Assembly (NCBI RefSeq): GCF_004118375.1
Contig: NZ_SDHX01000001.1
Coordinates: forward strand, 2,607,693-2,671,692
Direction of reading: 5' to 3'
Origin: Oleiharenicola lentus
GTDB taxonomy: Bacteria > Verrucomicrobiota > Verrucomicrobiia > Opitutales > Opitutaceae
Length of the DNA: 64,000 nt
Below are positions 18,242 to 28,857 of this stretch, piece after piece; the first letter of the stretch is position 1, and the number at the start of each line of letters is the position of its first letter. Position numbers and translations under genes: made by a program. The notes beneath the pieces are model-generated. The model saw only the letters and a list, made by a program, of their open reading frames with translations, searched no databases and was not told the DNA's origin.

Positions 18242-19306
18242 ATGATCAAATTTGACATCTCCATCCTGCCCGGTGACGGCATCGGCCCCGAAGTGGTCGC
18301 AGCCAGTCTAGATGTCCTGCGCGCCGCGGAAACCCGGCTGCGGGGCGTTCGCTTTGAGTGCACCGAGTTGTCGGTGGGCGCGGGCGAATACTTGAAAAAC
18401 GGCGACCCACTGCCGGGTTCGGCCATCGCCCGCATGAAACAGGCCGACGCCATCCTCCTCGGCGCCATGGGCCTCCCCTCCGTGCGCTGGCCCAATGGGG
18501 TCGAGATGACCCCGCAGATCGACATCCGCGAAAAACTCGACCTCTACAACGGCGTCCGCCCGATCAAGCTCTACCACGAATCGCACTCGCCGCTGAAGGG
18601 ATATGGCGGCGTCAACGGCAAACCGATCGATTTCGTCATCATCCGGGAAAACTGTGAAGGCCTCTTCTCCGAACGTCTCACGCCGCGTCCCGCAGGGCGC
18701 GACTTCGAGACCGACACCTTGAAGATCACCCGCCGCGGCGCCGAGCGCGTCTGTCGCGAAGCTTTCAAGCTCGCCCGCACTCGCCGCAAGCATTGCACCC
18801 TAGTGGACAAGGCGAATGTCCTGCCTTCGATGGCCTTTTTCCGGAAAGTCTTCGACGAAGTCGCCGCCGAGTTTCCGGATGTTCAGACCGACCGGGTCTA
18901 CATCGACGCCATGGCGCTATTTCTCGTCCAGCGCCCTCACACTTTCGACGTGATGGTCACGGAGAACATGTTCGGAGACATCCTTTCCGACCTCGCCGCC
19001 GGCCTGGTCGGCGGCATGGGCATGGCGCCGTCGGCCGACCTCGGCGACGAATACGGACTGTTCCAACCTTCCCACGGCACCGCCCCGACCATCGCGGGCA
19101 AGGGCATCGCCAACCCCGTCGCCACCATCCTCTCGCTGGCCATGCTCCTCGATTGGCTCGACCACCCCGAGACGAAACGCGCGGCCCGATTGATCGAGCA
19201 GGCGGTCGCCCGCGTCTGCGGCGACCCGGCCAACCGCACCGCCGACCTCGGCGGCAGCCTCGGCACACGCGCGATCACCGAAAAAATCATCGCCGCCCTC
19301 GAGTAG
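18242..19306 (+). CDS. Isopropylmalate/tartrate dehydrogenase-like decarboxylating dehydrogenase
   Basis: A 354-residue cytoplasmic NAD(P)-dependent enzyme of the isocitrate/isopropylmalate dehydrogenase family. '[10 protein letters not shown]' is at the N-terminus. '[11 protein letters not shown]' and '[17 protein letters not shown]' carry the metal- and nucleotide-binding residues. '[12 protein letters not shown]' is the substrate-loop region, where tartrate dehydrogenases and true LeuB enzymes differ. No leucine biosynthesis gene is nearby. The following genes look like acid-sugar catabolism, so a hydroxy-acid substrate such as tartrate or a sugar acid is more likely. That is inference from context. 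Confidence 0.85.
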
Positions 19307-19325
19307 GGCCGGTCTCCGACCGGCC
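19307..19325. repeat. Perfect 8-bp stem palindrome, REP-like
   Basis: GGCCGGTC (19307-19314) and GACCGGCC (19318-19325) pair around the 3-nt loop TCC directly after the dehydrogenase stop codon. An AT-rich leader with the repeated phrase AAATCAAAAATC (19333-19344 and 19354-19365) leads into the cyclase gene. The hairpin could weaken read-through or be a dispersed extragenic palindrome; I see no second copy in this window. Confidence 0.4.
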
Positions 19326-19366
19326 TGGATCGAAATCAAAAATCGAGAATCCTAAATCAAAAATCC

Positions 19367-27100: not shown

Positions 27101-27961
27101 AAGCTCTACCTCGTCTATCTGCCGACCGGCGGCGAAGCCACCCTCGACCTGGGCGGAGCAGCCGGCGACTTTGCCGTCTCTTGGTTCAACCCGCGCACGG
27201 GCGGCTCACTCGTGTCCGGTCCCCGCATCTCCGGTGGCGGTGCCGTCAAGCTCACCGCCCCCGACAGTCAGGACTGGCTGGCGGTGGTGCGAGCCGTCCC
27301 GGTTTTCGCGGCCGGTTCCGGAGCCAAGGTGCTGGTCGTGGGCGGCGGCAACTACCACGACTTCGCCCAATGGTTCAACCGGGCCGACGTCGCCACGATC
27401 GCCGCCGCCGGTCACCGCCCTATCTACGTCGACGACCCCGAAACCGCGGCCCTCGCCCTCGTGGACGCCGACGTGCTCGTGCTGAGCAGCGCCTTGGGCT
27501 GGCCTGCCACGCCTTCGTTTCGCCGCGCTGTCGCCACCCACCTTGAGGCCGCCCGCGGCTTCGTCGCCCTCCACAGCGGCGTATGGCGCACCTGGCCGGA
27601 TTGGACTGAATACGAGAGCAGTTATATCGGCATCGCTGCCAACTCCCACCCCAAGCCCTTTGAGTTCGAGGTCTTCAACCGCCAGCCCGGCCATCCGGTC
27701 ATGCGCGGCGTCCCCGCTTCTTTCAAAATCACCGACGAACTTTATGAAGTGACAACTCGCTCTGGCGGCGTGCCCGTCACCGTGCTGGCCGAGACGCAAC
27801 CCAGCCCGAACTCGAAGCAGACTCATCCCAGCGTCTGGGTGCCCGCCCGCGAAAACGGCCGCACCGTCGGTCTCGCCCTCGGCCACGACGGCCGCGCGCG
27901 CGGCGCGCCGGAATTCAACCGTCTGCTCGTCAACGCCGTCGAGTGGACCGCCGGACGATGA
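24191..27961 (+). CDS. Exported multidomain glycosidase: binding modules, DUF5060, glycosidase barrel, ThuA
   Basis: A 1256-residue exported protein. In order: signal peptide (1-25); the 'EAEHF...SMREDGFELDK' module shared with 15821 and 16740 (about 35-235); a second beta module (about 275-420); a DUF5060 immunoglobulin-like domain (about 435-560); a TIM-barrel glycosidase (about 575-930) with candidate acid/base Glu in 'NWNLGEENTQT' and nucleophile Glu in 'VVCNDEQN'; a collagenase-type beta domain ('YLVYLPTGGEATLDL'); and a C-terminal ThuA domain (about 1035-1256; 'VLVVGGGNYHDF', 'ARGFVALHSG'). ThuA proteins are linked to keto-disaccharide metabolism. Its ATG overlaps the kinase stop. Substrate and GH family are not settled. 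Confidence 0.8.
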   Translation: MKTPPLFRLTFGLAVGLVSSFASAPIADPDLVFAERDGLVAFEAEHFIKQELSTVRAWHLTHAQQHPTLAPDTDGTHVLGASGGAYLEILPDTRWSHDEKLVAGENFSNEPGKLAILSYRVHFSTPGRYHVWARILSTGPEDNGVHFGINGTWPESGRRWQTVKKRDWAWDSRQRTEKVHVGVPGQLYLDVPTAGEHTIQISMREDGFELDKVILTNAPNYVPEGTGPEPRVHAGRVPAAFAIPAGYTDTPAVTPLPPKAPQPATESAPAPSAAAAGTVTAASLKLDGTGYYLDKGKWAAIHPDRNKEAAVKFTVPASNGRYRVVLHAVGESDGASEFEVRLADRLIGRFVCPLSNAMFEEGERYTQTWWDVDVSEGTLVEVRSRIASADGKEWSRARWSKIEFIPMSAVGHGQSRLELARAQREQLFRPVPRQPHGDATVKVGGELRAWHKVTVDLAGPFAAETDTAPNPFTDYRFDVTFTHESGTPSYVVPGYFAADGNAAETSATAGTIWRAHLSPDRGGKWNYRVSFTRGSNAATYGGGSPVAPYDGLSGSFVVTGSNKKHPDFRAGGRLTYRGGHYLIAAGSGQPFLKAGADAPETLLAYTDFDDALALKKEVPLKTWAPHVADWREGDPSWKGGKGKGLIGAINYLGHKGANAVSFLTYNAAGDGDNIWPFVARDEKFHYDCSRLDQWAIVFEHAQARGVFLHFKLQENESDDHRAGARKTPKVIPEALDAGATGPERRLYFREMIARFGHNLALNWNLGEENTQTPEEQRAMAQYIRDTDPYDHLLVIHSFPEQQDEVYENLLGKQSELTGASAQNSWKLAHQQTLRWVRASAAAGRPWVVCNDEQNPANQGVPPDLGYKGYAGKNNQGKEVGYDEHDIRKATLWGTLMAGGAGVEYYFGYQLPENDLLLEDFRSRERSWDFCRIALGFFRDHAIPLAQMTNADELVGNPAHDNSRYCLAQSGKLYLVYLPTGGEATLDLGGAAGDFAVSWFNPRTGGSLVSGPRISGGGAVKLTAPDSQDWLAVVRAVPVFAAGSGAKVLVVGGGNYHDFAQWFNRADVATIAAAGHRPIYVDDPETAALALVDADVLVLSSALGWPATPSFRRAVATHLEAARGFVALHSGVWRTWPDWTEYESSYIGIAANSHPKPFEFEVFNRQPGHPVMRGVPASFKITDELYEVTTRSGGVPVTVLAETQPSPNSKQTHPSVWVPARENGRTVGLALGHDGRARGAPEFNRLLVNAVEWTAGR

Positions 27962-28857
27962 ATGCCCTACGCCTCGCCCTGCTCTTGCCGCTCGCGTTCG
28001 GCCCTCTCGCCGCGACCCCGACCCTTCAGGTCATCGCCGTCGGACCCAACCCCGAGAGCGTCACGCGCGGCTTCGGGGGTGATCTTTTCGCCACGCTCAT
28101 GGGCGAAACCCGCAAGGACGGTGACGGCAATGGCCGGATCGTGCGCATCCGCGGCGATGCTGTCTCTGATTTTTCCGCCGGATATGACGATCCCAAGGGC
28201 ATCGTCTTCACCGGCGATCACCTGATCACGGCAGACTTCACGCGCGTTTGGAAAATCGACTCGACCGGCAAAAAAGAACTGCTGGCCGGCCCAAGCGACT
28301 TTCCGCATCCACCGTCCTACCTCAACGATGTTGCCCTGGCGCCCGACGGTCGCAGCGTGCTCGTGACCGACATGGGGGCCGTGACCAAGATGCGCGATCC
28401 CGGCGGCCAGCTCTGGCCCGTGGATAGCGCGGAGGCGGCCGCCATTCCGGTTATCGCCCGTGTTTACCGCATCACGCTCGACGGCAAGGTCAGCATCGCG
28501 GTCGAAAACCAGCGCACCATGCTGCTGCCCAATGGTGTTACCTCGCTGTCCAACGACACCCTTCTGCTCGCGGAATTCTTCACTGGCAATATTCTCGAAT
28601 ATCGTGCGGGTGGTTTTCGCATCGTCGCGACCGGTCACCGCAGCGTCGACGGCATAGCACGCGACTCCCGCGGCACGCTCTACGTCAGCGAGGTGTTCAC
28701 CGGCAGGGTTTGGGCCATTCCAGCAGATGGACCGAAGAGACTGCTAGCCACCCTCACTTCGGCCGCCGACTTCCTGCTTGATGAACCCGCCAGCCTGCTG
28801 GTCGTGCCGGACACTAAAGCAGGAGCGCTCGCTTTCCTGACTCTCCACAGACCTTGA
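27958..28857 (+). CDS. Exported SMP-30/gluconolactonase-like beta-propeller protein
   Basis: A 299-residue protein with a signal peptide (MNALRLALLLPLAFGPLAA) and a six-bladed propeller pattern ('YLNDVALAPDGRSVLVTDMG', 'VDGIARDSRGTLYVSEV'). The fold is that of SMP-30/gluconolactonase and related lactonases, though metal ligands are not certain. Its ATG overlaps the previous stop (ATGA, 27958-27961), so it is the last gene of the coupled run that starts with the cyclase. A periplasmic lactonase for the sugar acid taken up by this operon is a plausible role. Confidence 0.75.
   Translation: MNALRLALLLPLAFGPLAATPTLQVIAVGPNPESVTRGFGGDLFATLMGETRKDGDGNGRIVRIRGDAVSDFSAGYDDPKGIVFTGDHLITADFTRVWKIDSTGKKELLAGPSDFPHPPSYLNDVALAPDGRSVLVTDMGAVTKMRDPGGQLWPVDSAEAAAIPVIARVYRITLDGKVSIAVENQRTMLLPNGVTSLSNDTLLLAEFFTGNILEYRAGGFRIVATGHRSVDGIARDSRGTLYVSEVFTGRVWAIPADGPKRLLATLTSAADFLLDEPASLLVVPDTKAGALAFLTLHRP

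Follow-up and report, generated by a model that had tools for sequence, protein, structure and literature searches.

A recurrent gene cassette built around a Tyr-to-Phe variant of the isopropylmalate dehydrogenase family, with a possible role in the oxidation of apiose-like sugars

The window of this study is a stretch of 64,000 nucleotides from Oleiharenicola lentus (Verrucomicrobiota; Opitutaceae; contig NZ_SDHX01000001.1, positions 2,607,693 to 2,671,692 of the forward strand), in which an earlier note, made from the sequence alone, had singled out eight genes as an acid-sugar pathway coupled to an exported glycosidase with a ThuA domain. We observe directly that an enzyme of the isopropylmalate dehydrogenase (IPMDH) family, a cyclase-family hydrolase, an ACS-type permease and a Gfo/Idh/MocA oxidoreductase of this run recur together in Verrucomicrobiota, Planctomycetota and Bacteroidota, that they are joined by alternative end modules, that the IPMDH-like enzyme (IPMDH-F) has Phe in place of a catalytic Tyr in every pathway member compared, and that the Bacteroidota separately recruited a relative of tartrate dehydrogenase (TDH) with the same Tyr-to-Phe change. 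The main interest of the locus is not the ThuA fusion but this repeated, residue-marked recruitment of IPMDH/TDH enzymes into a route with a Gfo/Idh enzyme and a hydrolase, whose ends, OtnK/OtnC or DUF1537/VOC, are exchangeable.

All eight genes were confirmed on the forward strand, at the positions and in the families that the note had given (domain scan with Pfam and NCBIfam models of nine window genes, 18242-30343):

18242-19306, + strand: IPMDH-F (core), isopropylmalate/tartrate-dehydrogenase family, Phe142 replacing the catalytic Tyr (PF00180, 1.5e-92)
19367-20035, + strand: cyclase-family metal hydrolase, proposed lactonase (core; PF04199, 3.5e-24)
20032-21294, + strand: ACS-type MFS permease, the core transporter (PF07690, MFS_1; TIGR00893, 238 bits, cut-off 395)
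21309-22364, + strand: Gfo/Idh/MocA oxidoreductase, proposed aldofuranose 1-dehydrogenase (core; GFO_IDH_MocA; best PDB match 5uhw)
22376-22774, + strand: VOC protein, methylmalonyl-CoA-epimerase-like, proposed isomerase/decarboxylase of the end module (TIGR03081, 83.5 bits)
22767-24194, + strand: DUF1537 kinase (SBD_N and NBD_C), end module (PF07005, 1.8e-52; PF17042, 3e-35)
24191-27961, + strand: exported multidomain glycosidase, 1256 residues (GH115_C-like, DUF5060, Collagen_bind_2, ThuA)
27958-28857, + strand: exported SMP-30/NHL (SGL) propeller (PF08450, 1.8e-9)

The overlaps that had been described are present as well: ATGA at 20032 and 24191, eight nucleotides shared by the VOC and kinase genes (22767-22774), and a further ATGA if the propeller starts at the ATG at 27958 and not at the GTG at 27943 given by the open reading frame listing.

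We read the run as an oxidative sugar-catabolic cassette and put the chance that it serves apiose or an apiose-like furanose at about even; the order of steps, every individual reaction and the identity of the sugar are what we infer from protein families and conserved neighbourhoods. The secreted apiosidase-like glycosidase would free a short furanose, the likeliest candidates being D-apiose and its close analogues, 3-C-branched or with four carbons, and the permease would import it, or its acid. The Gfo/Idh enzyme would oxidise C1 to yield a lactone, which the cyclase-family hydrolase would open to the aldonate. IPMDH-F would then oxidise the hydroxyl adjacent to the carboxylate to an oxo-acid; with Phe instead of the catalytic Tyr, it would presumably skip the decarboxylation and protonation that Tyr normally assists. 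Phosphorylation of the oxo-acid would fall to the DUF1537 kinase, and in cassettes that have the VOC protein, this would isomerise and/or decarboxylate the phosphate to a ketose phosphate, either dihydroxyacetone phosphate (DHAP) or erythrulose phosphate; in Planctomycetota, OtnK and OtnC may perform the kinase and final steps instead.

A cassette conserved in three phyla

To find relatives, the DUF1537 protein was used as query in a collection of 84,980 species with one genome each; 160 relatives were confirmed and 80 loci kept. A locus with both IPMDH and cyclase was counted as a cassette, and by this definition the cyclase is present in all 22 relatives. The 23 cassettes comprise that of the window, three loci of a first search of the phylum, 11 intact loci of the DUF1537 scan, locus L147 of genome G339 and seven loci of Planctomycetota. 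Fourteen relatives, the first, were found through DUF1537, and the presence of the kinase among them reflects this selection; the other eight were found through IPMDH. Together with IPMDH and cyclase, the Gfo/Idh enzyme occurs in 21/23 cassettes and the permease in 19/23 (20/22 and 18/22 when only relatives are counted), and the glycosidase in 16/23, represented in two of these, which lie at contig ends, by its N-terminal domain alone. The kinase is of the window's DUF1537 type in 15 cassettes and OtnK in two, while six have none in the fetched stretch. Gene order is shuffled among the relatives, with the content kept.

In the DUF1537 scan (tblastn, E<=1e-8), IPMDH-type and cyclase matches occur together in 12 of the 80 loci, one of them broken, and none of the 80 has an IPMDH match without a cyclase match. 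A sample of 387 genomes of the phylum contains seven with a DUF1537 match below 1e-100 and four with an IPMDH of at least 59% identity, all four among those seven; the distribution is patchy, with nothing matching the window kinase in the five congeners that the sample includes. The phylum to which the Pirellulaceae-labelled locus L045 (centre genome G396) belongs, taken as Planctomycetota, was sampled with 392 genomes; 11 of these have an IPMDH match at E<=1e-80, and permease, Gfo/Idh, cyclase and IPMDH stand together in seven of ten newly fetched neighbourhoods. These counts confirm that the gene run is real, more than chance and not specific to one strain, though patchy. The pathway idea of the earlier note, which had been staked on conservation beyond this strain, stands in this respect, as does the view that the IPMDH-like enzyme is integral to it.

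The same counts could be produced by a loose functional neighbourhood, in which the Gfo/Idh-cyclase-IPMDH core and the kinase/VOC module serve different routes under a common regulator. Such an arrangement would accommodate the six cassettes without a kinase in the fetched stretch, the core-bearing genome G688, which lacks DUF1537 altogether, and locus L035, in which VOC and DUF1537 occur without IPMDH. We nevertheless regard it as improbable: the co-occurrence recurs across phyla, the four genomes with IPMDH-F all belong to the seven with a close DUF1537 match, and the VOC and kinase genes of the window overlap.

One family-mate has a broken cassette (L015/L031, a single stretch), in which IPMDH and cyclase are partial, Gfo/Idh is spread over two frames and DUF1537 has one internal stop. 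It appears to have decayed as a unit, although an assembly error could also explain it; L031 was dropped from the cassette counts.

The isopropylmalate-dehydrogenase-like enzyme

IPMDH-F of the window scores below the cut-off of every listed NCBIfam model, among them the leuB model TIGR00169 (294.4 bits, cut-off 353.2) and the tartrate dehydrogenase (TTC) model TIGR02089 (273 bits, cut-off 470.4). With the solved IPMDH 1xac as reference, the equivalents of Arg94, Arg104, Arg132, Lys185, Asp217, Asp241 and Asp245 are kept in all compared rows. In the multiple alignment the position of Tyr139 is Phe in 26/26 pathway-type sequences (the 23 cassette members and three close relatives from the IPMDH-only loci L186, L187 and L188) and Tyr in 27/27 others, namely L148, the genome's own LeuB and 25 best-match IPMDH loci, which are a small part of all matches. 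A first pairwise look had given Phe for L124 and L130 and a gap for L142, owing to insertions; the multiple alignment has Tyr in all three.

Tyr139 (Thermus thermophilus IPMDH numbering) is the residue that we take to protonate the decarboxylated enol, and the triad Arg94/Arg104/Arg132 presumably holds the leaving carboxylate in IPMDH. The enzyme thus shares with 3-isopropylmalate and tartrate dehydrogenases the fold family and the checked residues for Mg/NAD and substrate binding, and differs from them in having Phe for the catalytic Tyr in all compared pathway members and, for the window protein, in falling below the NCBIfam cut-offs. Of the Lys-Tyr catalytic pair of metal-dependent beta-hydroxyacid oxidative decarboxylases, Lys is kept and Tyr is replaced by Phe. 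The importance of this pair is named in the title of Aktas and Cook 2009, as listed among the references of PMC8468904; a literature search on Tyr139 of IPMDH gave no match. We read the Tyr-to-Phe change as a loss of the decarboxylation/protonation half-reaction. An oxidative decarboxylation by this enzyme, which had been proposed for it, is doubtful because the Tyr139 equivalent is Phe in every pathway member, though the Arg, Lys and Asp residues are kept.

The three Bacteroidota IPMDH-F sequences form one clade, which lies inside the tartrate-dehydrogenase side of the tree. That from Flexithrix (L047) scores 490 bits against the TTC cut-off of 470, and the other two share 85% identity with it; in solved TDH the catalytic position that is Phe in IPMDH-F is occupied by Tyr. 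When the tree is built without the Phe/Tyr residue and its neighbours, at least two changes are needed on well-supported branches, and a single clade of all Phe members is rejected (p-AU 3.7e-5, a value that is not from a pre-planned test because the Phe group was named after the alignment had been viewed). The Bacteroidota have separately recruited a tartrate-dehydrogenase relative with the same Tyr-to-Phe change.

IPMDH-F is not an ordinary LeuB duplicate, as the genome has a separate LeuB with Tyr (C1:1481676). In G339, an IPMDH-family gene that keeps Tyr (L148, 9377-10456) is a sister or a reverted branch of the Phe clade and adjoins a fuconolactonase-like protein, an aldo/keto-reductase-like gene and a GH115_C-like fusion. 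Our literature search surfaced no paper in which IPMDH-family and DUF1537 genes are joined in one pathway; PMC7261140 contains both terms, its content not having been assessed.

Exchangeable end modules

The window kinase stays far below the models of OtnK (NF043035, 52.4 bits, cut-off 350) and DtnK (55 bits, cut-off 450), has no match to the OiaK model NF042436 at E<=1e-3, and found no match by phmmer in the PDB. Models and tree place it in another deep DUF1537 clade, distinct from OtnK, OiaK and DtnK, and rule out that it is simply OiaK or OtnK.

Other cassettes end differently. In L194 and L195 the order is permease, Gfo/Idh, cyclase, kinase, aldolase-II protein and IPMDH, with a 60%-identical glycosidase nearby; here the kinase is OtnK (516 and 501 bits) and the decarboxylase OtnC (NF043034; 306 and 301 bits, cut-off 250). 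Genome G339, from the window's own family, has cyclase, OtnC (296 bits) and IPMDH in order, and its sole DUF1537 gene, OiaK-like, lies away from the cassette. In four Planctomycetota genomes whose core locus lacks a kinase, OtnK and OtnC are paired at another place (473-559 and 279-325 bits). In all, OtnK exceeds its cut-off in six core-bearing Planctomycetota genomes and OtnC in those six and G339; a search for OtnC in seven genomes of the window's phylum and 11 genomes behind named loci found it over the cut-off in G339 only, the best score in O. lentus itself being 33 bits. Since OtnK and OtnC pass their cut-offs in sister cassettes or in the same genomes, the route appears to end in four-carbon acid-sugar chemistry, the earlier note having drawn a link to four- and five-carbon pathways.

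The VOC protein is found in 10 of the 15 cassettes with the window-type kinase (the window included) and in none of the other eight. It scores 83.5 bits against the methylmalonyl-CoA epimerase model, below the cut-off of 114.95, with a query lacking the first seven codons. Of 21 genomes searched, five hold VOC orthologues of 44-72% identity, and each of these has window-type DUF1537; among 11 genomes without this kinase type (three of them without a cassette) the best match has 30% identity, in one genome. From this distribution we infer that the VOC protein and the window-type DUF1537 stand in for OtnC and OtnK.

The four-carbon acid-sugar pathways with DUF1537 kinases that PMC12540250 outlines, citing Zhang 2016 and Guo 2024, are LtnD-OtnI-OtnK-OtnC and the three-step LtnD-2-OtnK-2-OtnC. 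The cassette resembles them in its DUF1537 kinase, in the OtnK and OtnC of its sisters and in a keto-acid phosphate that would be decarboxylated at the end. It differs from them in that its dehydrogenase belongs to the IPMDH/tartrate-dehydrogenase family and not to that of LtnD (NAD_binding_2/11), in the added upstream pair of Gfo/Idh and cyclase and the secreted glycosidase, and, in the window type, in having a VOC protein instead of an aldolase-family decarboxylase. Neither LtnD nor an F_bP_aldolase partner is present among the nine window genes scanned. Both types of partner accompany close relatives of the window kinase: the tree unites it with the kinases of L049, a Bacillota operon with an NAD_binding_2/11 dehydrogenase, a GntP permease and an F_bP_aldolase, and L050, with the same dehydrogenase and aldolase families. 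PMC12540250 assigns this dehydrogenase-kinase-aldolase domain set to the three-step L-threonate route of Arthrobacter, where 2-oxo-threonate is handled by 2-OtnK and 2-OtnC, and states that cyanobacteria carry the route too; cyanobacterial rows are also present in our kinase tree.

These relationships bring up a plain four-carbon sugar or tetronate of the threonate/erythronate type as substrate, with IPMDH-F as a tetronate dehydrogenase replacing LtnD (or LtnD and OtnI) and DHAP as product. The OtnK and OtnC scores, the operons in the clade of the window kinase and a pocket whose three Arg could be occupied by the tetronate carboxylate are all in keeping with such a substrate. It would, however, leave the co-conserved glycosidase and Gfo/Idh enzyme without an obvious task, we know of no common aldotetrose polymer, and the L049 dehydrogenase stays below the L-threonate dehydrogenase cut-off; we consider this reading unlikely.

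Two further known systems invite comparison with the proposed oxidation of an apiose-like furanose. Work by Carter in 2018 is said to have described D-apiose and D-apionate pathways with ApsD, ApnL, ApnO, OiaK and OiaX/OiaT. Likenesses to them are a Gfo/Idh sugar 1-dehydrogenase as nearest solved relative (if 5uhw is, as we take it, ApsD), the proposed lactonase step and an oxo-acid kinase of the DUF1537 superfamily; unlike them, the window kinase has no match to the OiaK model, an IPMDH-family enzyme takes the place of the oxidoisomerase, and both the nine scanned window genes and the 22 relative cassettes lack the RuBisCO-like OiaX/OiaT. The DtnK-PdxA2 (threonate 4-phosphate) route likewise combines a DUF1537 kinase with a dehydrogenase of the isocitrate/isopropylmalate/PdxA fold, PF00180 and PdxA dehydrogenases being related in fold; the cassette enzyme, in contrast, is PF00180 and not PdxA, and O. 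lentus has a separate DUF1537-PdxA pair.

Related end modules were also seen outside the cassettes. At L035 the neighbours of the VOC-DUF1537 pair are two more Gfo/Idh proteins (31-34% identical to that of the window), an ApbA/PanE-type reductase and, by sequence reading, the ATPase of a sugar ABC transporter; a phosphotriesterase-related hydrolase fused to VOC in a single frame (8533-9999; also in L036 and L221) is encoded directly upstream of DUF1537. We read this locus as a lactone-to-acid logic around the same end module. One run in a Bacteroides metagenome-assembled genome (L084, 759-10737) contains DUF1537 together with a DUF5060 glycosidase of 55% identity, a sulfatase-like gene and a protein that clusters with beta-keto acid cleavage enzymes, and lacks the IPMDH core. 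Seven Bacillota loci (L054, L058, L067, L068, L075, L082 and L085) combine the DUF1537 subfamily of the window with a GH127-type protein and with proteins clustering with the beta-keto acid cleavage enzyme of L054; they possibly represent an undescribed route for aceric acid or arabinofuranose.

Upstream steps and nature of the substrate

The Gfo/Idh protein has 5uhw as its best PDB match (7.9e-46; the next at 5e-21). This structure, whose PDB title reads only 'Oxidoreductase protein', we take to be the D-apiose dehydrogenase (ApsD) of the D-apionate work. A 3-keto-glycoside chemistry was set aside because the protein is far below the 3-dehydrogenase models (48.5 bits for BT_2158, cut-off 750), and neither this chemistry nor ThuA, whose domain is not kept in relatives, forms the centre of the system. 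The nearest solved relatives of the cyclase are 1r61 (6e-12) and kynurenine formamidases; it resembles metal-dependent amide hydrolases, scores 56.2 bits against the arylformamidase model TIGR03035 (cut-off 223) and is placed where the route would need a lactonase. The pair of Gfo/Idh enzyme and hydrolase suggests intracellular oxidation of a neutral furanose; the ACS-type permease speaks for the opposite, an imported acid. The idea of an acid-sugar pathway with an exported glycosidase, which is co-conserved, survives as a variant pathway, of which the release of a sugar that is itself the acid is an uncertain part. Overall the interpretation given in the earlier note is partly supported.

In the glycosidase, two parts are conserved: a GH115_C-like domain at about 30-230, and DUF5060, an apiosidase-like (b/a)8 barrel and Collagen_bind_2 at about 430-1035. 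The domain scan itself left the middle, between DUF5060 and Collagen_bind_2, without assignment, and put ThuA at the C-terminus. The ThuA tail was found in 0/22 relative loci searched, the frame closing at most 22 residues past the core in all 16 relative loci that hold the core to its end. The propeller and xylA are likewise absent from all 22 relative cassettes and were rejected as pathway members. ThuA fusion and propeller, which had been counted as parts of the system, are local additions. In the PDB, phmmer with the glycosidase gave a weak ThuA match only. Against PF13204 ('Apiosidase-like', cut-off 26.5) the window core reaches 22.6 bits, the Planctomycetota relative L195 27.5 and the relative L189 18.9. 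An AF2 model of the core was placed by Foldseek among (b/a)8 glycosidases, with the GH5 mannanase 9gpe first and 4n0r next, and with the GH140 structures 5msy and 8t9w also among the matches (TM to target 0.70-0.72 for 8t9w). Judged by these scores and the predicted fold, the enzyme borders on the apiosidase-like family. A reading as GH140 proper was set aside, with its core under the gathering score and two over-cut-off PF13204 proteins elsewhere in the genome.

Several observations weigh against apiose as the substrate or against the steps proposed for it. PF13204 has no match even at E=1 in L047 and L084, two of the five relatives tested; the model of the glycosidase core is of moderate confidence (pLDDT 69.8), and by Foldseek E-value the GH5 mannanase is better than GH140. 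The permease family is of the anion type. O. lentus has two better apiosidase candidates elsewhere and an OiaX/OiaK-like locus; apiose may be processed by these instead, and the case for it here is weaker accordingly. The VOC protein is missing from five of the 15 window-type cassettes, and these five genomes have matches of at most 28% identity. The core-bearing G688, practically complete in one contig, is devoid of DUF1537 matches, so that such a kinase cannot everywhere be required to phosphorylate the oxo-acid. The L049 dehydrogenase exceeds two 2-hydroxy-3-oxopropionate reductase models (456 bits, cut-off 397; 375 bits, cut-off 341) and falls short of the L-threonate dehydrogenase model (212 bits, cut-off 350), so that L049 is unsure as a threonate operon; with these scores, and with the kinase tree built without the biochemically tested 2-OtnK, action of the window kinase on a 2-oxo acid is a possibility. 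Finally, the three Arg that we take to hold a carboxylate are invariant in IPMDH-F, which is odd for apionate: a carboxylate is to be expected in the pocket, and a tetronate or a 3-C-carboxy acid would fit better.

One such sugar is a 3-C-carboxy-branched acid, for example aceric acid of rhamnogalacturonan II (RG-II), which might be imported as the acid, oxidised at C1, opened to a substituted tartrate and classically decarboxylated by IPMDH-F. An enediol resolving to a 2-oxo or a 3-oxo acid would then explain both kinase types, and the invariant Arg, Lys and Asp residues, the acid-type permease and the Flexithrix score above the tartrate-dehydrogenase cut-off would all find a place. The window DUF1537 subfamily also stands beside GH127-type genes in 7/80 scanned loci (one blastp cluster), and L054, the sole such locus scored, reaches 756 bits for 'aceric acid hydrolase' (cut-off 950). 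Yet Phe removes the very residue held to be needed for classical decarboxylation, the OtnK/OtnC equivalogs imply an unmethylated four-carbon product, unlike that from aceric acid, the window glycosidase is not GH127, and the GH127 loci lack the Gfo/Idh-cyclase-IPMDH core. We judge this origin of the substrate to have a low probability.

A further claim can tentatively be put forward, which we hold to be less probable than its opposite: that an oxidative decarboxylase of the IPMDH fold became, on two or more independent occasions and each time through the same Tyr-to-Phe loss, an aldonate dehydrogenase, possibly an apionate oxidoisomerase that combines oxidation with a hydroxymethyl shift, that a VOC metalloprotein replaced OtnC, and that the whole is an undescribed route for apiose-like sugars shared across phyla. 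Were the proposed pathway right, a function would be assigned to a recurrent cassette of three phyla in which polysaccharide degraders abound (Verrucomicrobiota, Planctomycetota and Bacteroidota). Acid-sugar catabolism would gain a dehydrogenase family and probably a decarboxylase/isomerase family, and the two separate recruitments with the same catalytic Tyr loss would represent a natural experiment in enzyme evolution.

Neighbouring genes and other acid-sugar loci of the genome

Three genes upstream of the run are of interest:

14511-15656, - strand: XylR/AraC-type regulator (PF13377, PF12833, PF22177 PBP1_XylR)
15821-16663, + strand: exported protein with a GH115_C-like (carbohydrate-binding-like) domain (PF17829, 4e-7)
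16740-18011, + strand: exported protein with a GH115_C-like domain (PF17829, 8e-8)

The first is the probable regulator of the cassette: relatives of at least 36% identity occur in the fetched stretch of 8/14 DUF1537-type relative cassettes, in several of them adjacent to IPMDH and divergent from it. Separate genes with GH115_C-like domains also flank IPMDH in L194, L195 and L047.

Besides the window kinase, O. lentus has two other DUF1537 genes. One is OiaK-like (328 bits, cut-off 700) and has an OiaX-like RuBisCO-like protein (503 bits, cut-off 700) as its neighbour; the other is found beside PdxA and a DapA-type aldolase, near one of the two PF13204 apiosidase-like genes. The usual partners of such kinases, which had been reported missing, are indeed absent from the locus (no search for OtnI was made), but with DUF1537-PdxA and DUF1537-RuBisCO-like pairs elsewhere such partners are present in the genome, attached to other kinases. 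The OiaK-like gene belongs to a run (L109, C2:1074001-1094000, at 3847-9067) of a fuconolactonase-like protein, a mandelate-racemase-type dehydratase, the RuBisCO-like protein, the kinase and a protein of 222 residues; similar RuBisCO-like/OiaK-like pairs occur in G393 and G397. The adjoining L110-L111 (C2:1094001-1133000) are by sequence reading a pectin-type region (GH106-, GH78- and GH28-like), with a gene combining DUF5060 and PF13204 near DUF1537-PdxA-DapA. The genome is in two contigs of 3.30 and 1.42 Mb (completeness 100), and the second may be a separate replicon carrying pectin and acid-sugar loci.

Elsewhere in the window, a DUF1552 protein gene overlaps that of a multi-domain protein of the PSD/PSCyt planctomycete-cytochrome type (10669-14354, - strand), and melibiase-like, kelch and sulfatase genes stand in a row at 47227-51073. 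A kelch-like gene, so identified by reading of the sequence, is also located between IPMDH and glycosidase in the Flexithrix locus (L047, 4832-6163).

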